Shown: piece by piece, positions 3,573 through 56,924 of the stretch
Layout: the number at the start of each line of letters is the position of its first letter
How positions within the stretch are numbered: the first letter of the stretch is position 1
Source: Mesodorylaimus sp. YZB2_4
Lineage: Eukaryota > Nematoda > Enoplea > Dorylaimida > Dorylaimidae
NCBI GenBank assembly: GCA_030248295.1
Contig: JASANH010000212.1
Span: 372,001 to 436,000 of the forward strand
Length of the DNA stretch: 64,000 bases
Direction of reading: 5' to 3'
Notes under the pieces: generated by a model
Told to the model about the DNA's origin: nothing
The model's database searches: none
The model's input: the letters and a program-made list of their open reading frames with translations, nothing else
Translations under genes and position numbers: made by a program

Positions 3573-5030
3573 CGTTCCGTGGGCAATTAGACAAGCTGCC
3601 ACGGGGGTTTTGCAAAGTGTACAAACCCTCCGTTGTTCGTCTCGTGTCGGTATAATCAATTTCATTGATCCTGTTGTACCAAAGTGTAGGTACGCTAATT
3701 GTCCTCTGTAACTGTGCTCTCTCTCACTTTGAAAATTGCCAGGAGACTGAATAAGTGCGAGAGGCCTCAAATTGTGAGAAATTCAGTTTGAAAATATGTT
3801 ACTTGACGCTTCCCTACTGCGTCACACGCAACAATGCTATCACCTTGGTACTATACCTGTTCAAAATATTGATCGTAGAAACGCATGACATAAATATACC
3901 TAGTCACTGTGTTATTCTAACCATAAGCGAAAAACTTTTTTTTTCTTCAGTTTAAAGTAACAGAGCACACGGGGCACGCACGCAATAAATTTCTGATTTT
4001 AATTTGAGTCTAGAAGTCAAGACACACTTTCTGTAAGAATCGACTATTTTCGAGAGATAATGGACAACCTATAAAAAGAATTGCGATTTTTGGTGATAAA
4101 TCGATGGGGTATACCGTGTAGGTGAGCTCATTGCTATTCTTTTCGCCTGGAACGCGCCTGCTGACTTTATATTGGGATTGGAGTAATTTTGTGAAACACG
4201 AAAATTTTTGTAAAAAGTAGGCTGGGCGATATCGCCCATATCTGGTCAATCATTCGGCTGAGTAACGCTTCAATGACTATCCTGATAGAGAATTGAACGC
4301 AAAATCCGAATCTGGCTTTAAAATTTGTCTAACTGAAATAGTTATTGCGCTATTCAACATTTTCGCGCGAAATTCAAGTTTTTGACACTGTAGTCACTTT
4401 ACGCTGAGCCCCGCCAAACGAGTCTAAAGAACGGGTCACCTCCATTTCTCTCATATGTCGTACAGAATTCAATGGCCTTTCGAACTAGACCAGTCGCGCC
4501 TCATTTCATAATGACCAAGGTGTGCTAGGGCTTCTCAAAGTTCACCGACGACCTTGACTTTTGACCAAAAATTGCTATTTTTCCCTCTCCCTCCAAAATT
4601 GTCCAAACAGACACGTCTTCTTACACTCTAGCCTGGTGCAGAATTCAAAGACGAGTCGAATGGGCGTACGCAGAGCTTTGTAGCTTGCCAGGATCGTGAA
4701 ATACACAAAAAAACAGGCGTCGTTTCAAACTTACCAGTCAAAAAACTTGCGAGTTGAGGGGGACCAGACGAAGTTTGCTAATGGCGAATGCCCGAAGTTT
4801 TCTAATAGATGAGAACGCGTTAGGCATTGCATTGACGCCATTTTTTTGCATAAAGCCTGGCATAAAATGCAGCACTGAACCTGGCGAAAGTCACTGTGAA
4901 AAGTGTCACTGCCCACCATCATCCCAGAATGAAGTCGCTTTGGACTTTATCTGTGCTGTTGCTCTCTTCGACATCAGTAATGGGCCCACCGGTGCCGCTA
5001 TGTCTGGTTCAGCATCCATTGTCTAGGATG
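3573..5030. other. No recognised gene
   Basis: AT-rich sequence with short unconvincing ORFs. No homology to the local repeat families was seen. Confidence 0.4.
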
Positions 5031-5451
5031 GCAACACTTGGGAGCCTCGTGTTCACCTGGCTTGCGAATTCGAAACGTATGTCAAGGCTGAAATTGCTGG
5101 TCTGTCTGTCGCTAAGTCCATGATGACAGCACACGAACTCTTCAGCCCATCCGACGAGTATTACGATAATGGTGATAAGGGTCCGAATGGAGAGGACTCT
5201 GAAGGTGAGTCATCTTCCTCTAATTCAGGCTCTTCTGTTCTTGCTGTCAGGTCACCCGTCATCGTGATCGTGTTTTCAAACGCTTCAACCGAACATCGTC
5301 ACGACCGCAGTATGATTCCAATGGCCAAGCACGCGCTCGTGGCCAATGGCGAGGAAGGTACAGTACTCGCTATTGGCACGACAGCGGTCACGAATCGCAT
5401 CGTTTCGACAGTCCATGGCCTTCTGGCCACAATGCCAGACACCCTGAGGAA

Positions 5452-5874
5452 TTGGAATCGCGTCCGGATGGTCGCGACCAACGACAATTTCGTAGCAATC
5501 GTCAGCGTTCATCGTCTTACGATGGTTATCGATCCGCATCTCATGATCAGCCCCGATCACGACACTCGTCCAAGAACCTTGGCCAAGTGAACTGTTTCAA
5601 CTACCAAGGTATTGGTTATTTCGCCCGAGACTGCCCCAGCCCCTTTGGCAAGTGTGGTAGTTCTTGTCATTTATCCAACGAATGCACGGCTAGTGGTCAA
5701 ATTCGATCGACGACTCTGAGCTCTGGGTCAAACCTTTGCTCGGAGAAACAGAGTCAGTCTAAATCGAAAGAGCCAGACTCGAATCTTCCGGCAACTCCTA
5801 AAGGGCAAGACTGGTATATCGCCCCAATCGTCTCGAATTATTCTAACCCTCCGTATTTTCTTTGTATCGCCTGA
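5452..5874 (+). pseudogene. gag remnant with degraded zinc knuckle
   Basis: A basic, Arg/Ser-rich stretch is followed by a knuckle reading CFNYQGIGYFARDC, where the second Cys and the His of a CCHC finger are replaced by Tyr, then a partial second finger (CGSSCHLSNEC). Position upstream of a protease-like domain supports a retroelement gag C-terminus. It is non-functional as a finger and has no intact start. Confidence 0.6.
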
Positions 5875-5896
5875 GAATGTACCTAAACTTTCTTAT

Positions 5897-6334
5897 ATGT
5901 TCACAGCATGCGAGCTGCCCAATGTCTGTCTTTCACGAGATCGACGTTCTTTGTCTTTGCCGACGAGCTTACCACTGCCCCTGATCGACATCTCTATTTG
6001 TGGTTGGTCTACGCGTGTCTATGTGGACAGTTGCGCTAGTGTCTCACTTATCTCGGAAGGAGCCCTAAAAGGCATCTTTAAGGGAAAGTTTGATCGTGCG
6101 AAACTAGTCCCAGACAACTTCGATCATTGTGTTAATGGAGATGGACAAGCTATGCCCGTCCTTGTTGTCATTCATTTGGACGTGAAAATTGGAGATAAAA
6201 TTGCGACTAATACGTTTTTCTATGTTTTAGAACGTGGTAAGTACACTGTTCTGCGAGGAGAAGACTTCAATGCTCAACGGCATCGATTCCAATATCGTTC
6301 TGAAATTGGCCGAATTCGATATACGTACTGCTGA
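5897..6334 (+). pseudogene. Retroviral-type aspartic protease remnant
   Basis: The stretch around VYVDSCASVSLIS aligns with the D-[ST]-G-A active-site loop of retrotransposon proteases, but the conserved Gly is Cys. A second family-like segment, FYVLERGKYTVLRGEDF, matches the usual C-terminal part leading to the xLG(x)D motif. The reading frame changes before the following linker (6234-6563 frame), so no continuous polyprotein remains. Confidence 0.55.
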
Positions 6335-7250
6335 CGAATTGGCTGGCGCATGCGTTCCAGTGCGACGATCTCCGAAAGGTCTTCTGAAGTGTGCGGCACG
6401 ACTGACCGAAACTGTTCGCCTTCGTGCACGGCATCATGTCATCGTGGAAGCTGTAGCTCCAAGATCCCTACACGGCCGAGACTTGTGCTTTGACCCCGTC
6501 TCGCCTGTTCGACACGTCGCAGCCCCTCGTGGTTTTGCCCGCCCTGATTCATCAACTGGTTAGTTCTTACTTCCGTTGGTCAACTTGGCGAATGTGTCGG
6601 TGACTATTCCTAAATTCACGAGTTTGGGGTTTTTTCTCGGAGCTGTACCCCTTCCCTATCCAACGGGTGCATGGCTGGGTTGAAGGTGGTAACAAGTCGA
6701 ACTGGGAAATGCAACATCCATTTATCCAGAACGAGGATGCCCCAAAATTTCTCTTGGTGGAACCTTGACTGCCGTGCATGCTTATATGCAAGCAGAATCA
6801 TTTCCATCAACCGATCCTGAAGTCGAAATCTGGTACCCGGAACGTGGAAAACGCGCACCGAAGACAGAATTCATGCGTGATCCGGTTTGGCCGCATAGGG
6901 TTGAGATTGATAAAACCGACCCTACCCGACAGGAAACCTTGCCTTCTAGGCTCAAAGTCGGACACGTTCAATTGCCGGAGCAAGATCGTGAACGAGTTAA
7001 GAAGTGTATCGCCGATAATTCCGACGTGTTCCCCCTGGATAAGAGCGAAATTGGTGGTACACCTTTGACGACGCATCACATGAACACGGGTGATGCAAAT
7101 CCGATTATGGCTCGCCCACGACGATTGGCCGAGAGTCAGAAGCACATCGTGCAGGATGAAGTTGCGATGCTTCTTCGGCTCGGTTAGATTCGCCCATCGC
7201 GTTCGCCCTGGGCATCGCCGGTCGTCAATGGTGCGCAAGAAAAATGGATT

Positions 7251-16062: not shown

Positions 16063-16112
16063 GCTTGTACCAAGTAGGAAATCCAGTCAGATGAGGGCAT
16101 GGCCCGAATGAG

Positions 16113-17228
16113 ATGTGTTATAGCAGACAATTTTGTGAATGGCAGGCAGTCAGTCGACAGAAAATGATTTATAGCCAAACTTCTTTAGCTGTTTCCGCTT
16201 TCGGAATTGTCTCCAATCTCTTTATGACTGTTTGGCTCGCCAGGTCTCGTGTGGGCACGACAGTCAATCGGTTGCTAGCACTGATCACATTTTCTGACGG
16301 AATGCTGATGTTGCTTCACTTAATTTACGTCGTCCATTTCGAATTGGGGGACTGGAAACAATACCCTATCGATCTTCTGACCTTGCCATGGGTCACATTC
16401 CAACTCCTTTACGCCAGTATCAGTGTATTTCTCAGAGCATTTACCCTTTGGCTCTCAGTAGCAATAGCTGTTTACAGAAAAGCAGTTTTATCGAGAAAAA
16501 CACCTTTACTCCAAGAAAATGTCAGTTATGCCCTAAAACTTAGTTTTGGAGTGGCTGCTGCTGTTTTTGCGATGTGCAGCCCCATTTTTGTGCAATACTC
16601 TATTGCGAAGGGCCCTCCAGCTCCACAAAATGGCAGCATTTACCAAGGTAATCGTAATGTATATTATGTATTGCAGCATCCAGAGTTTGTTTTATGGAAT
16701 GATGAACTTTTAGTCAGAATGTCATTTTGGGCAAATGGGTTATTTTTAAAGTTAATCCCGTGTCTTCTACTGTCGTATTTTTCTATAAACGGAGTAACTT
16801 TGATATACGCAAGGCACCGAAAGAGGCAGCAAAGCTTGTTCCGAAATAACAATCTCATTAATGATATGAAAGAAAAAATAAGTGGGAATCCGATTTCTGG
16901 TGTCAAGAAAAGCCCACGCATATCGGGGACTTCAATTCTGCTTATTTTATTTGCCACTGTGCTGTGCGAACTACCAAATATCATATTGTCTGTTTTGACC
17001 GGGATTTGGCCAAATGCTTTCATGGAAACTTATCTGAGTTTATCGAGCGTGATGGACATTTTGTCCTTGCTCAGCTGTGCAACAACATCAATTTTATATT
17101 TTGCTATGAGTCGAATGTTGGGGGAATCGATAATCCAAGCAGTTCCGAAGGTTTCTTTACGGTGTGGTAACATGACCAAGAAACGAGACGACATCAAGAG
17201 GAAGCAACATGACGCGACGACGGTGTGA
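16113..17228 (+). CDS. DMSR-like seven-transmembrane receptor A, 371 aa
   Basis: A single-exon rhodopsin-class receptor, likely in the plasma membrane. Predicted helices are near residues 21-43, 52-76, 93-121, 140-161, 203-232, 271-297 and 307-333. The helix 6-7 region (CELPNIILSVLTGIWP, then SSVMDILSLL and AMSRMLGES) resembles the myosuppressin/DMSR receptor family, where ELPQG and MSRQFR occupy these places. The ligand is therefore plausibly an RFamide-type neuropeptide, by inference. The DRY position reads YRK. Compared with receptors B and C, both cysteines expected to pair between helix 3 and extracellular loop 2 are Tyr (codons at 16362 and 16641). The conserved family start may be the Met at 16164 (MIYSQTSLAV). 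Using 16113 adds 17 residues. Several upstream ATGs (for example 16091) precede it. The N-terminus is very short for a receptor, so an upstream exon is possible. Confidence 0.8.
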   Translation: MCYSRQFCEWQAVSRQKMIYSQTSLAVSAFGIVSNLFMTVWLARSRVGTTVNRLLALITFSDGMLMLLHLIYVVHFELGDWKQYPIDLLTLPWVTFQLLYASISVFLRAFTLWLSVAIAVYRKAVLSRKTPLLQENVSYALKLSFGVAAAVFAMCSPIFVQYSIAKGPPAPQNGSIYQGNRNVYYVLQHPEFVLWNDELLVRMSFWANGLFLKLIPCLLLSYFSINGVTLIYARHRKRQQSLFRNNNLINDMKEKISGNPISGVKKSPRISGTSILLILFATVLCELPNIILSVLTGIWPNAFMETYLSLSSVMDILSLLSCATTSILYFAMSRMLGESIIQAVPKVSLRCGNMTKKRDDIKRKQHDATTV

Positions 17229-21400: not shown

Positions 21401-22479
21401 ATTTTAGAAAAAGCCTAAATACGTGCGTTCGTGCTGGAAGTATAGTATCGGGTTGAAAAGTGGACCCTACAAATCTCCCTCTGACTCGTAGAAAATCACT
21501 CGCAGGTTACAACTCTGTGCTTTTTCTGAAAACTTGTGAGTTAATGAACCAAGATCGCTTATAATTTCTTGTTAGTAACACAAGTCCTGTAACGCTAGGA
21601 CTTTCGATGGCTCATTTTTATGAAGCATCAGTTACAATTGTAACTTGGTGTAATTCGTAGCTGTTACAAGCTTAGTAAGTGTTTTAAGTCATATGCAAGG
21701 GATAGCACAAGGACATATTCACAGGGAGCATTCAAGAACTTTTTCAAAAGGAAGATAATAGTCACTGGTCTTTCTGTAGTGACTGCGAGTCGACGAGAGA
21801 TTGCATAGGTCAGAGCTCGATATCATCTGCTGAACAGATGATTTTTCAGCTCCATCACAGGCAGACTGACATGTCGAATTAGACTGACTGGAGGCACTGG
21901 GCCTTCGAGCGGCCACGGTCATCGATCGCAGCAGTGATCTCATAAGCTGGATTGTGCGCCCGACTTCTGTGCCGTCGAACGCTGAACGCTTTCGTCACAC
22001 CAGGATCTGTTCGACTAGAAACCTATAGCAAAGGCTTCAATACGTTGTGCCGAGCAACCGCATGCTCACGCTAACAAATAAGGCTGCCCCTCAACTCAAA
22101 ACCCCTCCGTCTGGAAACCCGACCCAACCCAACCCAAGAACCCAAAATAATGGCTTGGGTTTTGGGACTCAATGTCGGACCTGGTGTGGCTCATAATGCC
22201 AGCGATCGAAAACGATAGGACGGAAATTGGGGGATAAAATATTATGTGGAACGTACCATGGAGATATCACACGAAAAAGATGACAAGAAGAAAGAAATGA
22301 TGAAAAAGATATCAATAGGAAAAAGATGACAATTCTCATATAGTAACCTCTAGATTTATCCAATAGCGTATCCTTTTGGCAGCGGAAGAATTCGAAATTG
22401 AACTTATGGCTCGACAATTTCTGACACTAACATATATTTTGGATGCTGTTATACAGGTTATGGTGTGTCCATGTGACGG
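21401..22479. other. No recognised gene; AACCC-rich block
   Basis: About 22090-22195 contains ACCCAACCCAA units and the inverted match to 18003-18105. No supported ORF. Confidence 0.35.
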
Positions 22480-23117
22480 TGTAACCAGGCCTGGCAGGCG
22501 TAGGAGGGAGGCGGCCGACCGAAGTCGGCGGGTCAAAAACTCCGACTGGAGCAGGATAGTCTTGCGACTATACCTACGGCTGAAACATCAACCCGAGGGG
22601 TTGACGCTTCCCAGCCAGGGGAGAGTATCGATTACTCTCTCCCACTCGCCATGGCCTACCAGGCGGGGGGTTACATTCCTCCCATCGACAGAAGAAGCGA
22701 CGACCCCGTCGCTCTTCCCGGAAGGAAGACCTCCCCCTCCCAATAAGATAGAGGGCCGACCTCACACTGCCTACGCAGTGCAGACGGTACTGGGACCAGT
22801 TGGGTAGGCTGGCCGTGCCAGTGTTGGTCTAAACGCCCTAGACCGTGACGAACATGGGCGCACCCAGCGGTTCGACGGGGACTTACACCACTATGGATGG
22901 CCCCTAGGTCCGCGACGCCAATTTAACCAGGCCTCGCAGGCGTAGGAGGGAGGCGGCCGACCGAAGTCGGCGGGACAAAAACTCCGACTAGAGCAGGATA
23001 ATCTTGCGACTATACTTACGGCTGAAACATCAACCCGAGGGGTTGACGTTTCCCAGCCAGGGGAGAGTATCGATTACTCTCTCCCACTCGCCATGGCCTA
23101 CCAGGCGGGGGGTTACA
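22480..23117 (+). mobile_element. TRIM-like element: two 196-bp direct terminal repeats around 246 bp
   Basis: Repeats 22480-22675 and 22922-23117 have the same length and differ at few positions. Each is bounded by TG/CA-type ends with short inverted termini (TGTAACC...GGTTACA; the second copy starts TTTAACC). ACGG occurs immediately before (22476-22479) and after (23118-23121), read as a 4-bp target-site duplication. There is no coding capacity. Each repeat folds strongly: GCCGAC-CGAA-GTCGGC, an AGG...CCT stem with ATAGTC/GACTAT, TCAACCC-GAG-GGGTTGA, and GGGAGAGTA/TACTCTCTCCC around TCGAT. The internal part is GC-rich and also hairpin-rich. A plausible tRNA primer-binding site or polypurine tract is not evident, so terminal-repeat retrotransposon in miniature is the best fit rather than proven. 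Confidence 0.65.
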
Positions 23118-23149
23118 ACGGCATCCCCTCACATAGTCGAGAGTCGCGA

Positions 23150-24235
23150 CCGGATCTGATGGGGGTTTGTCGGATCGGATCGGATCGGATCGGATCGGAT
23201 GAGTTTCGGATCGGATCATGTGAAATTCACGTGTGTAATTTTTTTAAAATCGAAAACGCATTCAATTTTTTTCGGAATGTTGCTCTCCCATGATAAACAT
23301 ACAGTATTCATTATCACAGAGCCATAGCACAAGCAGCCTCTCTCACGTCAGCCACACTGCTCCTCATAGATCTACTTTGCAAGCAGATACAGTAAAGAAG
23401 ATCCATGCTGCTCATAAATGACTGACCATAACTTCAAATCTGCTAATAAAAGCGGATATTTCCACTTCTTTCCTCTCCCCTTTAATATGTTTGTCTTCCG
23501 ACTCCAAACATTCGCAAAATATGACGCGGCAACATCAGCACCCGTTGGGTCGAGCTCAACAAAACCAAAAAGCATGATTTGTTTCTGGGTGCAAAATAAA
23601 GCACTCTGAAAAATATCAGAGGCGTCTGACCAATGAGTTAGCAGTGGGCAGCGCCTGAAGTCATGGGAATTATTTTAATTCTTCTAGATTTTTGCATCAA
23701 ACCCAAGTGTTTTAAACTCAAAGCCCGAAACCTGAAAACCGAGTTTGGGAAGAGCCTGGCGTGTTTTTTTTTCTCAACGCTCGGGCTCCTTACCATACAA
23801 GAATTCAAAAATTCTCAGGACTTTGGGCCACCGCTACTGCTGATCGATCAGTTGGCCAGACGCGCCTGATATTTTTCAGAAAGCTTTCCTTTGCACCTAG
23901 AAACACATTACAAGTTTATTGGTCATCCATCTTTTCTCTGGCCTCAAATGATAATAATGATCTTACTTTCAACTCTAAATGAGCAGAAAAATGGAAGCGT
24001 CAACGCAGATATTGATCTTATCTCATTCATTACACTAGAGTGAGTGGAGAAAAACTGCCAACAGTTAGTTGTTTGCCCGTGGTGATTGCAAACACCGTCG
24101 GCTTAGAATGTCGGATTGGATAGCTCAGATCGGATGATCCGATCCGAATTTTCGGATCGGATATCTGATCCGAATCCGATCCGGTCCGATCAGGTCCGAT
24201 CCGAATCCGATCCGGTCCGATCCGGCCGTGAGTCG
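23150..24235. repeat. Region flanked by inverted GGATC/GATCC arrays
   Basis: The left array (about 23155-23215) repeats CGGAT; the right array (about 24130-24232) repeats the complementary GATCCGA/TCCGATCCGG units. The outer sequences (CGACCGGATC and its inverted form CCGGCCGTGAG) are loosely matched, suggesting a roughly 1-kb fold-back or satellite-ended element. Confidence 0.45.
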
Positions 24236-24604: not shown

Positions 24605-25042
24605 CTTGGCGTCATGTTTTCGAAACGTGCCATATGCATGAAATTTCACGCATCAAAAACCTTTGAACCTAAGGTACCCTATTATTAGTGGACACAGGAT
24701 ACTGCACGCGGTACCAGAGCCATGATAGCGAGAGGTCGCATCGTGCGGAGTTGATACATCACCAGCTGCACAACATAGCCAGTTAAGCGAGAGAGAAGAA
24801 TCTCCGGCCACATTGTTCTCATCGTCAATTCGACACGCTTGATGCCTGATATAGAAGAATAAAGGAGATGTTGTGCTTATATGCTCCTGCGACCCGACAA
24901 ATATCGTAAGCGCCATTAGTCCTCGAGTTTCTGTTCAAACCTTACAGCGAATTTACTCTCAAGTTATTCTATGGCCCATATTAAGAGATTTGATTAAGGC
25001 AAGTCTCCCGGACTTCAGGCCTGAAAGACAGGTGCTTTGAGG
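24605..25042 (+). repeat. Upstream region of receptor B, duplicated upstream of receptor C
   Basis: Shares many blocks with 33540-33960: GTCATGTTTTCGA, ACCTTTGAACCTAAGG, GCACAACATA, TGCCTG(A/G)TATAGAA and CTGCGAC. The coding sequences were therefore duplicated together with their flank. The conserved TATAGAA block is a candidate core-promoter element. Confidence 0.7.
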
Positions 25043-26119
25043 ATGGGATACTGCAAAGCTTCGTTGGCTATTTGCGCATTCGGTATAGTCTGCAATATAT
25101 TCATGACCTCTTGGCTGACCAGGTCTCGTTTGGCCACCACAGTCAATCGGCTACTGGCCCTAATCACATTTTCGGACGCTGTGCTTATGTCGCTCCATTT
25201 TATTTACGTTATCCATTTCGAAATGGGAGAGCGACACCGATGCCCCATCGATCTTCTGACCTTGCCGTGGGTCACATTCCAACTGATCTACGCCAACGTC
25301 AGTGTCTATCTAAGAGCATTCACCCTTTGGCTCTCAGTTGCAATAGCTCTTTACAGAAAAATGGTTTTATCCAGAAAGACTCCTTTAAGGAAAGAAAATT
25401 ATAGTTTTTCCCTGAAGGTAGGTCTTGGAGTCGCTATAGCTGTTTCTATGATGTGTACTCCCATTTTTGTGCAACATTCTGTCGTGGAAGGCCCTCGTGC
25501 CCCTGAAAATGATACCATTTGTCCAGGTAACCACAGCGCATATTACGTGTTGCAACACCCCGCGTTCGTTTTATGGAATAACAACTTTTTAGTCAAGATT
25601 GCATTTTGGACGAATGGACTCCTTTTAAAGTTGGCTCCGTGTCTGCTACTCTCGTATTCCTCGATGAATGTCGCAGTTTTAATGTACTTGAGACATCGGA
25701 AGAGGAAAAAAAGCCTTTTCCAAAATAATGTTTTTATTAATAAAATGAAAGAAAAAATAAGCGGCCGTTTGAATTCATTTGGCCAAAAGAGAGTTCGTAT
25801 GCCCAGCTCTCTAATCTTGGTGATCATTTTATTCACCACTGTTTTGTGTGAGTTACCAAATACCATATTGTCGCTTATGACAGGGATTTGGCCAAATGCT
25901 TTCATGAAAACTTATCTGAGCTTATCGAGTGTCATGGATCTTTTGTCCTTGTTCAGTTGCACTACCACATCCATTTTATGTTTTATAATGAGTCGAATGC
26001 TGCGAGAATCCTTGATCACGCAATTTCAAGGTGCTTTTCAAGACGTGATGATCTGGCTAACATCGATATTTTGGAGGATCATGTGGGGACGGCAAATGTC
26101 AATAACTTCGACGGAATGA
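25043..26119 (+). CDS. DMSR-like seven-transmembrane receptor B, 358 aa
   Basis: A single-exon paralogue of receptors A and C, with the same helix pattern. It starts MGYCKASLAI at the conserved family Met. The helix 3 entry has the expected Cys (RCPID, codon at 25241) and extracellular loop 2 has its likely partner (ICPG, codon at 25520). The DRY position reads YRK. Helix 6-7 carries CELPNTILSLMTGIWP, SSVMDLLSLF and MSRMLRES, as in myosuppressin-type receptors. The C-tail ends in a hydrophobic, Trp-rich stretch, unlike the basic tail of A. The closest relative is receptor C, with which it also shares upstream DNA. An AATAAA lies at 26371-26376. Peptide-receptor function is inferred from the family. 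Confidence 0.85.
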   Translation: MGYCKASLAICAFGIVCNIFMTSWLTRSRLATTVNRLLALITFSDAVLMSLHFIYVIHFEMGERHRCPIDLLTLPWVTFQLIYANVSVYLRAFTLWLSVAIALYRKMVLSRKTPLRKENYSFSLKVGLGVAIAVSMMCTPIFVQHSVVEGPRAPENDTICPGNHSAYYVLQHPAFVLWNNNFLVKIAFWTNGLLLKLAPCLLLSYSSMNVAVLMYLRHRKRKKSLFQNNVFINKMKEKISGRLNSFGQKRVRMPSSLILVIILFTTVLCELPNTILSLMTGIWPNAFMKTYLSLSSVMDLLSLFSCTTTSILCFIMSRMLRESLITQFQGAFQDVMIWLTSIFWRIMWGRQMSITSTE

Positions 26120-28918: not shown

Positions 28919-31236
28919 GTGGCATTGATCACGATTTCAAAATTTAAGTTTGATTTCTCTAATATCAACAACATCAGAGGAAAATTTGGAATGTTTCAAG
29001 CAGAATTACATGGAGGAAATTATGATTTCTACTCGATTGTTGAATCCAAGATCGACTCCTCAATTTTAGACTACGAGATCACTGCCCCTGGTTATGGCCT
29101 ATTCCGACAAGATCGAACTCTTAATAGTCGTCTATTATCTATTATTGGTGATTCTATTATCTATCGTTTTCTATTATAAAAATTCATTTCCCTGCATTCA
29201 ACTCAAGGGGCCTTCTGATTTTGGTGTTGGGAAAGAAGTCGAAGCCCTAGCTGTACAAAGTGGTAGTGTTCGTAATTCAGTTATTGTTGTCTCCGTAGAC
29301 GTATTTACCAAAAAAGTCATCATCATCAGTTAATGCACTGCATGACTACTTGTCAAGGGCATCCGCACGAAATTTTCATCGTCTGGTGATCATAGGTGAC
29401 GTCAATACTGATTATTTGACGGATTCTCCTGAGCGGAAACGTTTAGTCGCAATGCTGTCTGCAAGTGGTGGCGACCAAACTGTGGCCGCTGCCACCCGTC
29501 TGGATCCCATCCAGAAAACTCGTTCATTGATTGATTTGGTCATTTTGGGGGATCATATTTGCAAACGCCATGTGTCAAAGTCATTTTTATCTATACCTTG
29601 GAAATCTGACCAGGATGCGATTGAAGTGGAAATCTCAGCAACTTACGAAAAGCTAACCCAGGACTTGCGTCGCAATTGGCTATTGAACACTGGGAATTGG
29701 GACCACGTCAATAGCCATCTGTCAGAATATAATTTAGTCAATTTGGTTGAAACAGCTCCCACGATCGACTCGGCTTGCGAATTCTTGACCAGCAAAAGCA
29801 ATGAGGCATTATCAGAATTTTGCCGCCAAAAGAACGTTCGATTCGACAAACGATCACCATGGGTGTCATCCAATTTATTAGCCTTGATTCGGCGCAAAAA
29901 CATCGCTTACAAAAGGTGGAAGAAATCTGGAGATATTGTGGATGAACGTATTTTCAAATCACTCTGTGCTCAAGTGAGGAAATCAGTTGGACGATCAAAA
30001 AATGGACTATATCAAGGAGAAATGTTTGGGGATCAATACCGCTGATCAATTTCGGTCAGCTTATCGCAAAATTATCGCCTCGAAGAAGCACAATTCCAGC
30101 CCTGATCGATTCAAATGATCGCCCGCTTCTATCAAACCTCGAAAAAGCCAATGCTCTGAACATTGAATTTTCGAACAATTTCAATTCTGAAGACTATGGC
30201 AAATTCAAACTTCCACCGCTGGATCCTGACGATTTTCTGGACTACAAAGTCAATGATTCATTCATTTTCCGAGAGATTTCTAGTCTAAACCGAAGTAGTG
30301 CGCCAGGCGAGGATGGTTTGACTGTTACGATCATCGAACGGATCGCCCCCGCTATTGTACCTGCTCTCACCGCCCTCTCTAACAGATCCATTGCGGAAGA
30401 AATATTCCCTGCACCCTGGAAAAAGCGAAGATAACAGCAATGCCAAAGTCAGGTGGAACAACGATCTTAACTCATTTCGGCCTATTTTGCTATTATGCAT
30501 CATGTCCAAATTGTTAGAACGACACCTCGATTAATTGTTCCGACTGTTTTTGCATATTTCTCCGAAGCAGCATGGTTTCGTCAAGCGGCGGGGAACAAAT
30601 AGTGCTTTAACCCCTAGTTGGTCTCACTGTTCGCAGCATCAAGTAGCAACTGTACGATGCCTGTGCTAGAAGATAGTTCTTCCTTTCGTACGATTCATGT
30701 TTCAATTGAAGTTATTATTGTTTTTGGGCACTTTTTTGGGGTTTTCGGGCCGCCGTTTGAGAACCGCTTGATCGATTTCGATAATTTTTGGTACTAGCAT
30801 GTCCTACCTACCAACCTATGATACTACCAAACGGTCTTGCAAAATAATGGCTGGTTGTCGAGATATGCAGATAAAACCGTTTCGCCCTGTGTTATAACAT
30901 GCGTTGGGTCTGTGGACCCAAGAGTTCGACCAACTACGGGTTAATTTCGGCCAGTCAATTCATCCGCGACTCGCTCAACTCAAAAAAAGTAAAAATCGTA
31001 GCAGGAGTGTTTTTGGATCTTAAAAAAGCGTTTGACAAGGTGCCGCATAGTCCCTTACTGCAACGGCTGTTTCTCGATCATAGAATTCCGTCAAAAATTG
31101 TGCGATGGGTGGCATCTTATTTATCTGGTCGCTCACAGCGAGTGATCATTGACGGATGCTCGTCAGATTCAATTCCCGTGCGATCTGGTGAACCGCAAGG
31201 TAGTATCCTGGGACCTACCTTGTTCGTCGATGCGTG
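28919..31236 (+). mobile_element. Degenerate LINE: endonuclease and reverse-transcriptase remnants
   Basis: 5' endonuclease-like part at about 28919-29110 (INNIRGKFGMFQAEL, SIVESKIDSSILD, APGYGLFRQDR). It is followed by LVIIGDVNTDYL and SLIDLVILGD (29390-29550), the usual end of an APE endonuclease. A linker leads into reverse transcriptase with SSAPGEDGL (30295-30320) and FRPILLLCIMSKLLERHLD. It then breaks and resumes at 30899 with VFLDLKKAFDKVPHSPLL, SYLSGRSQRV and PQGSILGPTLF. The copy has frame changes at about 30020 and 30090, an in-frame stop, roughly 290 bp of foreign or unrecognised sequence at about 30610-30895, and no YADD or 3' end. A Jockey/CR1-like group is likely, but the clade cannot be assigned by eye. 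Confidence 0.8.
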
Positions 31237-33539: not shown

Positions 33540-33913
33540 GCGTCATGTTTTCGATACGTGCCATGAGCATGGGATCTCATGAATACGAAACCTTTGAACC
33601 TAAGGAACGTATTTATACGCGGTAGACCCCAGGATGCCACATGTTCCTGAAGGATGCCACATGACACTGAAGCTGTCAACGTCGATCGTATCATGGGGGG
33701 ATAATACATCATAAGCTGCCGCACAACATAACAAGTTGAGCGAAGGAATTCACGAGATCTCCTTGTTTTCAATAGACGTGCTATGCCTGGTATAGAACAA
33801 GAAAGCCTGTGCCCCTTTAGGCTCTGCGACTCGCCAAATATTGTTCATTGCGATAGTCCCCAAGCTTCTTGCTCGATCTAAGCTGTTCTGTAAAGTTGCT
33901 ATTTGGTTGTGCA
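33540..33913 (+). repeat. Upstream region of receptor C, duplicate of the receptor B flank
   Basis: Homologous to 24605-24980 (see shared blocks there). Contains an internal duplicate AGGATGCCACATG at about 33632 and 33653. Confidence 0.7.
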
Positions 33914-35041
33914 ATGGGCCACACAGCTGGCCAGTCTCTTGACTTAATCCCGGAAAGACTGGCGTGTCTGGGGATGTACTACTCCAAAGCGTCGCTGGCT
34001 ATTTCCTCATTCGGTATGGTTTCTAATCTATTTATTACTGCTTGGGTGACCAGGTGTCGAGTGGGCACGACAGTCAACCGATTACTATCTCTAATTACAT
34101 TCTCCGATGCTGTCCTAATGTCGCTCTATACCATTTACGTGATCCATTTCGAAATGGGAGAACGAGACCGGTGCCCCATTGATCTTCTGACCTTGCCCTG
34201 GGCCACATTCCAACTGATCTACGCCAACGTCAGTGTCTATCTAAGAGCATTCACCCTTTGGCTCTCAGTTGCAATTGCCGCTTACAGAAAAATGATTTTA
34301 TCCAGAAAGACTCCTTTAAGCAAAGAAAATTTTAGCTTTTCTTTGAAAGTAGGTCTTGGAGTCGCTATGGCAGTTTCCGTCATGTGCATTCCCATTTTCG
34401 TGCAATTCTCTGTCATGGAAGGCCCTCCAGCCCCTGAAAATGATACCATTTGTCTAAGTAACCACAACAAATATTATGTGATGCAACATCCGGAATTCGT
34501 TTTATGGAATAACAAATTTTTAGTCAAGATTGCGTTTTGGACGAATGGGATCTTTTTTAAATTGGTACCTTGTCTGCTGCTCTCGTATTTTTCGATTAAT
34601 GTCGTAGTTTTAATGTGCTTGAGGCACAAGAAAAGAAGGATGAGTTTGTTTCGAAATAATTCTGGCGCCAATAGTGTGAAAGAAAAAATGAGTGGTGCCT
34701 CAAGCAACACAGGACGTAAGAACGTTCATATGCCAGGTTCTGTGATCCTAGTTGTGATTTTACTTGCAACTGTTTTCTGCGAGTTACCAAATACCATATT
34801 GTCAGTTATGACTGGGATTTGGCCGAATGCTTTCATGAAAACTTATCTGAACATATCGGATGTGATGGATCTTTTGTCCTTGTTCAGTTGTACTACCACA
34901 TCCATTTTATATTTTGTTATGAGCCGAACGCTGAGGGAATCGCTCACCTTAGCAGCTTCAAGAATGTTCTCAAGATGCGGCGATACAGCCAACAACCAAA
35001 ATGGCATTGAGGAGCCAGAAGTCGGGATGGCGATGGTGTGA
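33914..35041 (+). CDS. DMSR-like seven-transmembrane receptor C, 375 aa
   Basis: A single-exon receptor closest to B. The first in-frame ATG is at 33914 (MGHTAGQSLDLIPERL...). The start homologous to B is the Met at 33974 (MYYSKASLAI), which would give 355 residues; which is used is undecided. Helix 3 entry Cys (RCPID, codon at 34172) and loop 2 Cys (ICLS, codon at 34451) are present. The DRY position reads YRK. Helix 6-7 motifs are CELPNTILSVMTGIWP, NISDVMDLLSLF and MSRTLRES. The acidic tail ends EEPEVGMAMV. Likely a peptide receptor at the cell surface, by family resemblance. AATAAA at 35322-35327. Confidence 0.85.
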   Translation: MGHTAGQSLDLIPERLACLGMYYSKASLAISSFGMVSNLFITAWVTRCRVGTTVNRLLSLITFSDAVLMSLYTIYVIHFEMGERDRCPIDLLTLPWATFQLIYANVSVYLRAFTLWLSVAIAAYRKMILSRKTPLSKENFSFSLKVGLGVAMAVSVMCIPIFVQFSVMEGPPAPENDTICLSNHNKYYVMQHPEFVLWNNKFLVKIAFWTNGIFFKLVPCLLLSYFSINVVVLMCLRHKKRRMSLFRNNSGANSVKEKMSGASSNTGRKNVHMPGSVILVVILLATVFCELPNTILSVMTGIWPNAFMKTYLNISDVMDLLSLFSCTTTSILYFVMSRTLRESLTLAASRMFSRCGDTANNQNGIEEPEVGMAMV

Positions 35042-36773: not shown

Positions 36774-36966
36774 TGTAACCCCTACCGGGCAGGCCATGGC
36801 GAGTGGTAGAGAGTAATCGATACTCTCCCCTGGCTGGGACGTCAGCCCCTCGGGTTGATGTTTCTAGGTCAGGTAGTCGCGAGACTTGCCTACCTGCAGT
36901 CGGAGTTTTTGTCCCGCCGACTTCGGTCGGCCGCACTCTCTCCCACGCCTGTCTGCACGGGTTGCA
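36774..36966 (-). repeat. Solo copy of the structured 196-bp terminal repeat
   Basis: A 193-bp minus-strand relative of the repeats at 22480-23117, with ends TGTAACC (plus-strand left) and GGTTGCA (right). It keeps GCCGAC-CGAA-GTCGGC, CAACCCGAGGGG and the ATCGAT hairpin. The variable stem reads CAGGTAG/CTACCTG instead of the sequence in the other copies. Consistent with a solo LTR. Confidence 0.65.
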
Positions 36967-45669: not shown

Positions 45670-48600
45670 ATGGCTGAGCAGTCGACGTATGAAATAATGT
45701 GCGATTTGTGCTATGATCTTGGCAGGGAAAACAATGGCATCATATCGATTTCTCAGGAAAACGCAAATCAGGAAGTCGATTCCCATTTGAGATCTCATGA
45801 TGCGGACCTGAAATCGATCAGCGGGAGCGCGCGATTAGAAGTAAAGAAAATTTGTGGGACGAAAGAAATCAATTCGAGCAATAATACTAAGCGATCCAGC
45901 GGCCATATCGCGGCGGCTGTCATCCCAGCAAATAGTAAAGAAGCAAGAGTCCATGGGCAGCCACCAGGAAGGGCGAGGTAAGTTGGGTTTTGTTAAAGTG
46001 TATGTTCAAAAAGTTGACAAGGTTGACATGATCTGCAAAAGGCGTAAGAACTTAAAGTGCTTTGTTCGCATGTTTTGTCATCGGTATTCGCATCTAAACA
46101 TTTTACCGCGCTTACAACTTGCAACCAAAGCCAGTTTTCCCTGAAGCTCAGACAATCATGCATTTCGTTTCTTCTGCGCCTAGCATGATGGTGTCTGCTT
46201 TGGTAGTTGGGTACATCGGCAGTTGGCTGCCGGTCTTCGCATTCCGTTAGGTTTTTCCTTTTACATGGACAGTTTGACTGACCACAGTTTTTACTTCTGG
46301 CGCTGAAGAATCAATGGCTGGGAACAGTTCAGAGGCCTCGACGCTATCACATTCCTAATATTGGGATTACAGTCGAACTCGTCTGACGGCAACCCGGATA
46401 GCAGCAACTTCTGTATAACAGCTACTGTTTGCCCCGCACTGATTTTTTCAGCCATGTTTTATACACAGTTGAGCCCTGCATAAGAGCAACCTTGATAACA
46501 GTAACCGTTTTTGCCGCCCCAATTAGCTTGCAAACTGCATAACGGCAACTTTGGTCAATATGAAATGGTTCATGTCTGCATTTGACGCTAAAGGAGCGAC
46601 TAGCGATGATCAGATCAGATTTAGGAAAACAATTTTTTGCCATGGGTCTCATTTTCTTTATATTTCCTTTTCTTAGCTTCAGTTATGGCCATTTGGTTAC
46701 CTCGGCTAAAATTACCTTCGTGGCACATAAGTTTTCAATGGAAAGTTTTACACAGGCTGATCCCCACGAATCGATTTTTGTTCTTAAGGAAAATAAAACC
46801 ATCCGAAAACTGTCCTTTGTGTGACGAGTCACCTGACGATTTCGAGCATTATTTCTTCTGTGTTTTCTCACGTGCATTGTGGGCTGAGTTGGAAGAGAAG
46901 TTACAGAACGTAGGAATCAATATTTTTTTGACCAAGTTGGATTGTCTCTTAGGCGCGCCAAATCAGAATATCCCTCTGAATTTATTGCTGCTGTGGACTA
47001 AATTCTTTATTTATAAGTGTCGCATGAAATGTGTCATTCCGTCGAGTCATTCACTTTTTGCCTTCATACGCTCTGCATTTTTTTGTTCAAAGCCTTGCAA
47101 CGTAATCATCCAAATTTTGGGTGTATTAAGATACTTTTTGACGTGATGAACACACGGTATAAGGCCTGACGTCGAACTCGAGGATCTGACATGAACCAAT
47201 CTGAGCTCCAACCAATCTGATCAACATCCTGGGTGCATGTGATCATGGGAAGCAGTGAAGTGCACTGTCTATTGCAGTCAACGCTTCGGCTGTAGCCCAC
47301 GATATATCCTCTCCAAGATGATAACCAGTAAGCTCGGAAAGGGAATTGGACTGTGAATCGGGTTTGGCAGACGGTTTCTCTTTTTCATTGATGTTCCACA
47401 ATACTTCTTTTGTGATTTGTTCGGGCCGCATCCCTTGTGCCTTCTTTGCTTTAACCTACAATTGCCGCCAACTTGTTAGGTTTTTTTTAAAATAAAACTC
47501 TAAATATATAAACAAAACTTATGGCCATTTGGAAAAAGCAGGAACGAAAAAAAAATTCGACAAAGTATACGCGGAAAAAGATACCAGACCTCTTTAAGGA
47601 ATCAATAGCATCTGCGTGCAGTGCTAGTATATTGCCCCTTGATATAAATACTGGGTGGAAAGCCTGTTCTTGTGTTGCACACATAAAGTAGAAAGCTTTT
47701 TTGGCAAACATCGGATAGCAGCAATCTCGATTAACAGCAACTCTTTTGGCGGTCCCTAGCGGTTGCTGTTACCAAGTTCGACTGTATAAATAGCGTGGTA
47801 GATGCGGTATGAAAACTAGCGATAGGTCGGGGTCACCTTTTATGGGGATCGGGATCGGGAGTTTTTGCTTTCTGTTTTGTTGCCTACGAACTTTTTTCCT
47901 CACTAAAGCACACTTTAGTAATCCAGGTTTTCAAAAAGCTTTTTCTTAGGTCAATTTTCAAGCATTACATATAAGCTGAAGTGGTTCAGTAAATTTGCAC
48001 TTTCGATACACGTTGTTCTTCTGAATTCCACACTATTTCCAGCCAGAAATATCAAGGATTGTTTCATTTTTTTGTCTGCGCACAGCAAAAACTCGAGAAG
48101 AGCCAGTCTACCTGATCCAGACTTGGAAAGCCTGATTAGGAACGCTGTCCCACCAGGTTCAGTGCCCAGGTGCTATGAGTGGAGAGACGGAAACCATCGC
48201 AGCCCATCCCTCGTTGTCTTAGGAAGCCTGAATCTGGTCCACGGTGCCCTCATGCCCCAAGTGCAAGTGGAGATGAAGGGAGGAAAGTTGCCGAGTAACC
48301 TTTCCTGACGCGGCCTCGACTGCTGGCCGTCATTGAGCAAACCGTGTCCAAAAAATTTCTAAAAAAAAACCAAAAACTAAAAAAATATAGCGAGTGGTCT
48401 TCAGGAAACTCGTATCACAAAAGATATTTAGCATTTTATGTCCTCCATCTTCTACTTTTTAGATCCCCATCACCATCGTCCTTTTCTGACCCCACCGAAA
48501 AGCATTGCTACGAATTATTGAAAACTCGTCGTACTGGTCGCAATGTTCGATGTGCCCTATGTGGGGGCTATCTGACTGTCGCCCAACGGAGCAATCAAGT

Positions 48601-54398: not shown

Positions 54399-56822
54399 TT
54401 ATGAATATCGCCTGACCACGCTCGACCAAAGCATGCATGCAAGAGTGATAAGCATGAGTGATGATTTCGCAGCACTCGCCCTGGCCGCCCATCGTTCTAC
54501 CACATAGGCAGGCACACGACACTTGCTCGCCAGGCACCTGCCCACCGAGCACTGTCCGTCCGACCAGCACGTTGACTTGTAATGAATACTGTTGGGCGGT
54601 ATGATCGGCCTTCGTACAACATCTCTCGGCCGTTTGCAGAATGCGTCCACGCACATGGAACCAGGGGCGCACATGTCTGTGGTCTTACACCGCCCTCCGG
54701 GTGCCACACGACCAGGAGTCTCGCCACCTACGATACAACGTTTATAATAGCAATAGCCGCTTGAGCAATCAGAATCGATCATGCACGACGCACCCCCGGC
54801 CACAGTGCGAACCATTGGGCCATCGCTGCTGCACACCGAACCTGTTGAGCACATGTCCGAATAGCAGTCACCGTCGCTGAGACAAATTCCACCACCGGCG
54901 ACGCGATTGGCATAAATTTCTCGAGAGTTATGCTGTCGATTGGTTGGATCGTCGGCGTAGGAGTCGGAACTGCACTTCCCTGAAAAAAAATGTTGGTGCT
55001 CGATTAATAAAGACATTCTCACAACTAGTAATTTAGAATTCTGTGGTCTTTTTTTGAGTGTACCGAACAGACAAAGCAGACGTCACTGACAGTTGGGGAA
55101 TAACTCTGGACTACCCTACACTGTGTGCATGCTCTTGTAAAGCACGAGTAAGAGGGCTAAGTTCAAATACTCTGATATGTGGTACCAGACCCATTGCAAT
55201 GATGTTTTAATCTATTCCAGTGTTCCCTGAATGCTACAGCAGGTATTTACCAGTTTGGATAATTCAGTCTCAGATCCTCTGCTGGACCCACCTGAGTGCG
55301 TCTAGATGTAATGTATAATTCAGGCTGTCCAGCTAGGGAAGCACCAGCATTACCTTGCACGCATAAAAATGAGAAACAATGGTGATGTTCACGACAATAG
55401 GATCCAGCAGCCACCCATCCAGTCACAGTCATGGGGGCATAGGAGACGGAGCAGACCTCCGCGTGGCACTGCCCAGACGCGCATTGTCTGTCGTGGACGC
55501 ACCGCCCACCATCGGCGATCAACGAGGCATTGACTGGCGATGCTGCTCCGCACCGATTAAACACACACGGCACTGAAGCCACACAATCTTCCGCAGTCGT
55601 ACATTCACCGCCTGGGTGTGATTTCGGCGGACGATCGCTATCATCGTCCTCTTCCTCGTCATCATACAAATCATCATCGACATAATCCACTTTTGAAGGA
55701 ATTATACTCTCGTCTGGTTTCGGTTTAGGGATAATTGTGCAAATGTCATCTTCGCATTGACTTTTATACGGACAGTGGTAATCCTCCCGACACCGGCCAC
55801 CATTGGCCACTTTACCTTTGGCACGAAAATGGTAACTTTCGGGAGAACATCGATCGCCGTAGCAAACGTGGGATGAGCACTGATTGTTGTGAGAACAGGC
55901 GCCCCCGCTCGGAATCACGTTGCGACGTCTAAAGCATAAAAAGGTGAAAGATTTATGTGAGCTTGGGGATTCGAACGGCCTTCTCTGGGATTGCTAGTGC
56001 TGCGTGCTGATGTTCGTAATGTTGACTGTTGCCAGCACAGTAATTTAGTCGACTCTTAACGGTAAACCCAGAGGCGCGGATCCGAATCCCGCTGATGTTA
56101 TAGTTTTGCGTCTCTTGCATTAAACATTCCTAGTTTTTGTGATAAACTAACATCAGTAGGGGCCAAAAGGAGTGCTGGGGGGTAGCATGATAAACTCTGA
56201 GAGAACTCTGTTCTGGCACATGCGCCATCACATACTGTAAGCCATACCTAGTCTGTGTCTTATGTTTCCTGTGGTTCATGTCACATAGCAAACTGTCCAC
56301 TGTGCACTCATTTTTCACTACAGTACCTACTTTCTCGAGTGTGGAAACAGGCAGGTTAGGGCATCTCTGACCCGTCTTACCTTCCATCCGGTCCGCACCT
56401 CGACGAATGGCAATAGCCAGAGTAGCACTGTTCGTGCACTTGACATTCTGCACCAGCCGCCAGCAAGCCAAGTTCGCTGTCAGCACTGTCAAAACTCTCG
56501 GCTCTACATCGGCCAGCTCGACAGTAGCCCGAAAAGCACTGCGAACTCGACGAACATATGCCGCCAGCCGCCACCTTGCCTAGCGAGCGACTGTCCGAAG
56601 AGCAAGTAAGATTGTAACAATAATTAGAGAAACATTGCGAATTGGAAGTGCACGCACTGCCGCCCGCCATTGTGCCATTGACTGGACCATCGGGTGCGCA
56701 GAAACTAGTCGTTCGAAATTCAGTGTAGCATGTGTTCGAAAAGCATTGAGAATTGGTTGTACACGAGGTGCCGCCTGGTAGTGTCCCGTCCTCGTACAAC
56801 GCATCGGATGGATGTGAGGCTG
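54399..56822 (-). CDS. Secreted cysteine-repeat protein with GGxC modules (5' end not found)
   Basis: Three minus-strand exons join in frame: 56822-56381, 55928-55354 and 54979-54399 (phases 2 and 1, GT-AG). About ten modules of the form GG-x-C-x5-6-C-x3-C-x3-6-C are visible, for example GGTSCTTNSQCFSNTCY, GGICSSSSQCFSGYC, GGACSHNNQCSSHVCYGDRC and GGRCVHDRQCASGQC. They resemble EB or Dickkopf-type disulfide modules of invertebrate extracellular proteins. An acidic linker (YVDDDLYDDEEEDDD) interrupts them in exon 2. The last 20-odd residues are hydrophobic (SSLMLITLACMLWSS), which could be a lipid-anchor signal or a short membrane tail. The first exon enters in phase 1, so a signal-peptide exon must lie further upstream; I could not find it. 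Function unknown. Confidence 0.7.
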
Positions 56823-56924
56823 CTGAAAATCATCGATCACTTGTAACTCGCGTGTGTAAAGCAGTCCACTTTTCTTGTTTACTTTACACCTTTTCCTGCC
56901 CTGGCTGACGAGTGAGTCTACTGT

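Follow-up and report, generated by a model that had tools for sequence, protein, structure and literature searches.

The 638-bp element at positions 22480-23117 of the 64,000-nucleotide stretch of Mesodorylaimus sp. YZB2_4 DNA analyzed here (the window) is a terminal-repeat retroelement of the TRIM type whose sense strand is the minus strand. We consider it highly probable (roughly 0.87) that the element is primed by tRNA-Ser, is mobilized in trans by an autonomous LTR retrotransposon, and carries its RNA fold as a packaging or cyclization signal. At the level of sequence, the LTR pair, the primer-binding site (PBS), the polypurine tract (PPT), the target duplications, the copy families and the recent copies are directly apparent, while mobilization in trans, a partner of the gypsy type and the role of the fold as a signal are what we infer. 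The family is a real, partly young and abundant TRIM, ordinary in its life style.

Two direct repeats of 196 bp (22480-22675 and 22922-23117) enclose 246 bases (22676-22921), and ACGG adjoins both ends of the element (22476-22479 and 23118-23121, from sequence and copy comparison). Alignment bears out these coordinates and the duplication, which had been given in a preliminary description of the DNA. The LTRs have the TG..CA ends and the element the target-site duplication of TRIMs, and the two LTRs with their short internal region, 638 bp together, fall under the ~1 kb of this class. The repeats of the window copy are 97% identical over the 194 of 196 positions aligned by the repeat tool and 96.4% identical over 196 in a whole-LTR comparison. 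The internal bases had been taken to be non-coding, in agreement with the finding that no stop-to-stop frame of at least 150 aa overlaps the element (the listing covered frames of at least 150 aa). The orientation had been missed: neither a PBS nor a polypurine tract was seen on the plus strand, and both appear on the minus strand, where the element reads as an LTR (TGTAACC..GGTTACA), a T followed by the PBS TGGCGTCGCGGACC, the internal region, the PPT GGGAGGAA and a second LTR. In this orientation the 5' LTR, identified by repeat alignment, is 22922-23117, with differing terminal bases (..GGTTAAA); the PBS lies one base past it at 22907-22920 (pattern search and tRNA match); the 246-nt internal region (repeats, ORF list and genome search) ends in the PPT at 22676-22683, which copy comparison places directly before the 3' LTR at 22480-22675 (repeat alignment and genome search).

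Within the 3' LTR, again on the minus strand, folds place hairpin H1 (GGGAGAGAGTAATCGATACTCTCCC, LTR 33-57) at 22619-22643, H2 (CGTCAACCCCTCGGGTTGATG, LTR 70-90) at 22586-22606 and H5 (CCGACTTCGGTCGG, UUCG loop, LTR 148-161) at 22515-22528, and alignment and consensus fold place H3 (GGTATAGTC-GCAA-GACTATCC, GNRA-type loop, LTR 102-122) at 22554-22574; the H3 loop is GCGA in most aligned subfamily-2 copies. The stretch CTCCAGTCGGAG followed by TTTTT (H4, LTR 125-141, 22535-22551), marked by the word used for counting LTRs, is a possible hairpin and is not paired as one in the consensus fold of representatives. All four hairpins that had been named for the repeats are present in the left repeat, and the right repeat has one arm changed (ATAATC for ATAGTC). 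A short tandem run of TCGGA(T) units lies some 50 bases from the element, at 23170-23226.

Separated from the 5' LTR by a single base, the PBS TGGCGTCRCGGACC fits a tRNA-Ser(CGA) gene from the same genome at that gene's 3' end. This gene, located by a 3'-end pattern at C89:265523-265604, is 82 nt long and ends in ..CCTGTTCGTGACG; once CCA is added, the 3' end of the gene complements TGGCGTCACG, and when ..TCGTGACG (+CCA) is set against the PBS, ten bases match exactly and are followed by a G-U pair and then AC. The element thus presents both a PBS next to the 5' LTR (TGGCGTCRCGGAC against tRNA-Ser(CGA) of the same genome) and a PPT just before the 3' LTR (GGGAGGAA), as expected of a TRIM. A second tRNA-Ser-like gene on contig C369, recognized from pattern matches only, ends in ..TCGCGACG and would fit the G variant of the window copy. 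A tRNA-Ser sought by a guessed 5'-end pattern was absent from the 15 loci cut, and two tRNAs obtained by tRNA family search, a Leu (L087) and a Ser-TGA (L088), do not fit the PBS. Genome-wide, the PBS pattern ACATTGGCGTCGCGGACC occurs at 106 places with at most two mismatches, against 21 for the reversed control; TGGCGTCACGGACC is read at 48 of the 50 one-mismatch places, and some two-mismatch places lie in other retroelements. The PBS core TGGCGTCAC is kept at the start of four of seven subfamily-2 internal regions and at both subfamily-3 loci, and GGRGGAA stands at the end of five of the seven subfamily-2 regions.

Searches of the genome (145,146,385 bases, 1067 contigs) returned 41 LTR matches from the best 40 of 2916 candidates scored and 40 internal-region matches from the best 40 of 119 candidates scored. 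Twenty-six full LTR-internal-LTR copies of 591-646 bp were found at separate places among the loci fetched, and 23 of them carry an exact 4-bp duplication, a count in which LTR ends could snap to TG..CA within three bases, which can help to find duplications; under a stricter rule, with LTR matches reaching both ends and no snapping, the duplication is exact in 17 of 19 full elements. The build and the 4-bp duplications thus recur elsewhere in the genome, and the element is therefore not a product of chance; the label TRIM-like of the preliminary description is upheld by the PBS, PPT, duplications, LTR pairs and LTR-only copies, and the circumstances it named as fatal (no such build, no duplications, a satellite origin) are contradicted by the genome copies. 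LTR-LTR identity among full copies ranges from 88.8 to 100%, and because it reaches 100% in two elements (96.4% in the window copy), some insertions are young. The LTR word CTCCAGTCGGAGTTTTTG occurs 941 times with at most one mismatch (reversed control, 0), so there seem to be many more LTRs than internal regions, as solo-LTR formation would predict. Other fetched loci carry a lone LTR or a truncated element. A looser set of 32 "solo" rows, 16 of them with a duplication, gives no clean solo count, since it includes pieces cut at locus edges and LTRs adjoining internal regions; the stricter set holds seven solo-type rows, five with a duplication.

The family comprises several subfamilies. Subfamily-2 internal regions are ~72% like that of the window copy, and a subfamily-2 LTR lies in the window itself, at 36774-36966 on the plus strand (LTR search and alignment), with no internal-region match beside it and no exact target duplication. 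Subfamily 3, a putative TRIM group represented by one complete LTR (L125), shares the middle of the LTR and the PBS and has partly different LTR ends and a different internal region. Its two loci are on contigs C8 and C19. At the former, two LTR-PBS-internal pieces (L125 and L128, G000:C8:1329780-1331000) are inverted relative to each other and form an imperfect palindrome of ~1.2 kb (88.6%), with the contig ending some 4 kb away; the partial copy on C19 lies 4-6 kb from the end of that contig. At a further locus (L012/L013, G000:C14 ~157000-160300), internal-LTR-internal-LTR units stand in tandem and two LTRs carry an interruption of equal length, 172 bp, an arrangement that suggests growth by unequal recombination. 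This tandem locus and the long inverted ends of the LTR are what could be said for a tandem satellite or a MITE in place of a retroelement, an origin that we regard as practically negligible in view of the 26 full copies at separate places, 23 of them with 4-bp duplications, and of the PBS and PPT; head-to-tail arrays free of insertion duplications were not the rule, L012/L013 being the one exception.

The LTR folds to an unusual degree. The sense strand of the window LTR reaches -104.8 kcal/mol (z -8.26; plus strand, z -5.25), and on either strand none of 200 dinucleotide shuffles is as stable as the left repeat (22480-22675); the internal part alone gives z -1.68 on the plus strand, with 11 of 200 shuffles as good. 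Sequences for these comparisons came from final sets of 93 LTRs and 49 internal regions, obtained by dropping matches below 150 (LTR) or 190 (internal) bases, identical copies, copies cut short and those missing more than 25 terminal bases (in the first alignment set, LTR matches below 140 aligned bases had been dropped); representatives were picked by hand and not at random, namely 16 LTRs and nine internal regions for z values, nine and eight for RNAalifold, seven for end pairing and four elements for U5/U3 pairing. Sense z values lie between -3.6 and -10.6 in all 16 LTRs, the sense minimum free energy is below the antisense in all 16 (by 0.1 in two), and the sense z is the stronger in 15. 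In the nine internal regions the sense energy is always the lower, and the sense z is stronger in only five. Forty random 196-nt plus-strand windows gave a mean z of -0.61 and a minimum of -3.55. The consensus fold of nine diverged LTR representatives reaches -72.9 in sense, where column shuffles give -34.7 +/- 4.1 (antisense, -59.5 with shuffles at -34.1 +/- 3.7), and that of eight internal regions -56.1 against -42.9 +/- 4.4 (antisense, -50.8 against -35.6 +/- 4.4); by these margins over shuffles, the sense strand has no stronger internal signal than the antisense in terms of z.

The two ends of the LTR pair with each other better than 200 of 200 shuffles in all seven representatives and better than 100 of 100 shuffles in 66 of the 82 copies that start with TG among the 93. 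End pairing is found in three subfamilies, subfamily 3 being represented by one locus only, where the ends of L125 make 21 pairs within the first two helices and 26 across the arm duplex as a whole. As a control, the LTR of a different element (L086), bounded by eye from one copy whose 6 kb of fetched sequence showed no second LTR, gave z -1.14 and an end pairing matched by 89 of 200 shuffles. The earlier claim of strongly structured terminal repeats thus holds for the examined representatives in several subfamilies, and these predictions point to a fold that is unusual in degree, apparently conserved and common to three related subfamilies.

Covariation, which had been proposed as a check, counts rather against structure as a trait under selection. 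In a home-made tree-aware test (G statistic with APC, the null being placed on a tree from FastTree), no pair reached significance among the 93 LTRs, over all of which RNAalifold collapsed to 13 pairs. Among the 49 internal regions none of the pairs was significant genome-wide (best E 0.76, outside the structure), and two pairs within the structure set gave weak signals (E 0.012 and 0.048). Where stem positions of the window fold depart from their commonest pair, the 93 copies show 150 G-U and 13 double-standard cells against 113 A-C and 382 other mismatched cells. Many apparently dead copies and the poor end alignment of subfamily 2 dilute these tests, and the results are still not positive. 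The weak or negative covariation, the 382 mismatched cells, the stability above shuffles on both strands and an internal signal for which the sense strand has no advantage in z would all be compatible with a fold that is a by-product of ancient inverted duplications at the DNA level, inherited by descent and free of RNA function. We hold this to be somewhat unlikely, since the single complete subfamily-3 LTR, with partly other end letters, nevertheless forms 21 pairs in its first two helices, the sense energy is consistently below the antisense, and the consensus fold of nine diverged representatives goes far past column shuffles.

If the fold acts in RNA, a processing element of the retrozyme kind comes to mind, in which a self-cleaving or host-processed LTR RNA would cut read-through transcripts to unit length (LTR plus internal region), with the products circularized and then reverse-transcribed. 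Size class, 4-bp duplication, PBS and PPT, and the LTR-internal-LTR build are as described for plant retrozymes in the available text of PMC4918200, the two LTR ends close the fold, and TATAWA and AATAAA are absent from the two LTR copies scanned. We nonetheless judge this route very improbable. The hammerhead of retrozymes was not found in the element, CTGANGA being absent from both strands of the element, as the preliminary description had noted for the canonical CUGAUGA core; the Rfam search that it had proposed returned no ribozyme at E<=10 over 22300-23300 (the single match being a snoRNA, E 8.8) and none at the gathering cut-off over the whole window; and a circle of the window unit, although more stable than 25 shuffles (-196 against -168.3 +/- 6), is not more paired (0.661 against 0.663).

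A second question concerns the promoter. The word TGGCGAGTGG is kept in 73 of 93 LTRs and CAGTCGGAGTTTT in 63 of 93; the former resembles the tRNA A-box consensus minus one base. TTTTT follows CTCCAGTCGGAG in the LTR. The LTR might then hold a small-RNA-like Pol III promoter of the TRIMp3 (Helenus/Ajax/Cassandra) kind, with a start near TGGCGAGTGG and a possible stop at the TTTTT after CTCCAGTCGGAG, a reading that the two conserved words, the missing TATAWA and AATAAA in the two scanned copies, and the 4-bp duplications also made by animal Helenus (PMC10886601, in the text available) would accommodate. The LTR of L086 has AATAAA and TATAW, the latter a looser pattern than that applied to the family LTRs. 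Against a TRIMp3 identity, a sense-strand scan of the two LTR copies and the internal region turned up neither a strict A box nor a strict B box, and Rfam and tRNA searches found no tRNA or 5S similarity in the element; in place of tRNA- or 5S-derived LTR sequence with Pol III boxes, there is an imperfect A-box-like word. Membership of that group seems unlikely, and a TRIMp3-like promoter is possible but unproved on these sequence features.

The reading that we prefer, a tRNA-Ser-primed TRIM mobilized in trans, would operate as follows. The TRIM RNA would be primed by tRNA-Ser at the PBS, and an autonomous element, probably an LTR retrotransposon of the Ty3/gypsy type, would lend the proteins that reverse-transcribe and insert it, leaving the 4-bp duplication; such a partner would supply Gag, reverse transcriptase, RNase H and integrase. 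Later LTR-LTR recombination would yield the solo LTRs. The fold of the LTR and internal RNA would, as our best guess, serve as a cis-acting packaging or cyclization signal; within it, U5 may pair through its 3' end with the 5' start of U3 and so bring PBS and PPT together. Such pairing was predicted with four assumed start sites and an end at LTR 141, and with a full-length form. In the young elements L118, L042 and L004, 16-23 pairs are expected under all five start/end choices; under one pair is expected in the subfamily-2 copy L112, and the window copy has none in four of four minimum-energy folds. That the LTR is a new RNA device altogether, either an undescribed self-cleaving or host-processed fold (a 196-nt, hammerhead-free animal retrozyme with unit-length circles) or a dedicated U5-U3 cyclization stem setting the PBS beside the PPT, appears to us distinctly improbable.

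An autonomous element with matching LTR ends, PBS and PPT was not found among the loci examined. L086, probably an element of gypsy type, has a Retrotrans_gag match and a similar PBS (TGGCGTCGCGAACT), and its LTR is unrelated apart from the TGT..ACA ends. A pair of LTRs on contig C3, with 5.9 kb between them, was considered as a large autonomous element and rejected: they are 81% alike, one being nearer subfamily 1 and the other nearer subfamily 2, and by eye no retroelement-like protein was seen among the inspected frames between them. L110 (G000:C58:1-3560) was likewise set aside; it has a subfamily-2 LTR, PBS and internal region followed by a gypsy-type pol, but lacks a PPT and shows no second LTR before the contig end. 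Its pol (RT, RNase H, H2C2 and rve; minus strand, 360-2999) is followed, after one stop, by an open frame in the same frame; towards its C terminus this open frame has a match to a PWWP domain (E 2e-12), possibly a chromatin-reading targeting domain; no description of a retrotransposon joining a gypsy integrase and PWWP in this way was found in a literature search on titles and abstract starts.

The window has further features beyond the family. Open frames at 16095-17228, 25025-26119 and 33857-35041 are alike by eye and resemble seven-transmembrane chemoreceptors, perhaps forming a local array of genes; Pfam Srw matches the first, and the last (a GPCR) has only two distant matches, both from nematodes, at 25-28% identity. 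In searches for SL1 RNA, Rfam gave no match, the control genomes being likewise silent, and the core pattern of nematode SL1 had 0 occurrences at up to two mismatches. Remains of non-LTR retrotransposons lie at 46625-47146 and 29299-30434 (zf-RVT, E 8.7e-9, and an endonuclease match below the Pfam cut-off). Frames at 5027-7187 resemble by eye the start of a gypsy gag, protease and RT, with no Pfam match in the four frames scanned, and three minus-strand frames at 54399-56829 have repeated Cys-rich motifs (GGxC..QC-type) that are EB-module-like by eye.

TRIMs must fit all cis signals for transcription, packaging, priming and strand transfer into a few hundred non-coding bases, and the present family is a compact test object for what the LTR retrotransposon machinery must recognize, with signals that may appear as a stable common fold and with predicted pairing that ties PBS, PPT and LTR ends together; should the fold prove to act in processing, retrozyme-like life cycles would gain a route that does without a hammerhead. 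A limited literature search found no described TRIM that has structured LTRs but lacks a ribozyme, and titles and abstract starts gave no such TRIM family in nematodes or tardigrades. The proposal of a new class of small structured retroelement is nevertheless not sustained: the TRIM features tested are present, neither a hammerhead core nor a ribozyme of Rfam was found, and LTRs that are structured or bear small RNAs have already been described in retrozymes and TRIMp3 elements, as far as the available text of the two reports goes (PMC4918200, PMC10886601). Plant retrozymes share the LTR-internal-LTR build, 4-bp duplications, PBS and PPT, solo LTRs and a highly structured RNA, and differ in the hammerhead within the LTR and in LTR length, ~350 bp against 196 (PMC4918200, same portion). 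The Helenus/Ajax/Cassandra TRIMp3 elements are likewise TRIMs with PBS and PPT, and in animal Helenus with 4-bp duplications; small-RNA-like LTR content is a further likeness, whereas the element here is without tRNA or 5S similarity or strict A/B boxes (PMC10886601, same portion). Contacts between RNA ends that serve reverse transcription are, as an idea, shared with the 5'-3' cyclization of Ty1 and Ty3 genomic RNA, which according to the accessible part of PMC11381356 uses CYC5/CYC3 (Ty1) or a bipartite PBS (Ty3) in contrast to the direct U5-U3 pairing predicted here. The ta-TRIM of taeniid cestodes is also a small LTR element that does not code for protein, and many of its copies have duplications of 4-5 bp; in the text available, a structured packaging signal is proposed for it. 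It has ~590 bp between its LTRs, and its U3/R/U5 were set by transcripts (PMC4558846). The bivalve TRIMs, in the text available, have the same build (PMC6934838). PbTRIM of the harvester ant, likened here by description and not by sequence, is 480-781 bp long with LTRs of 152-184 bp, a non-coding internal region, PBS and PPT, 4-bp duplications and abundant solo LTRs; in the text of that paper the word hairpin does not occur and secondary structure is mentioned once, for insertion sites, and the PBS fits tRNA-Leu, where that of the nematode element fits tRNA-Ser (PMC3532108).
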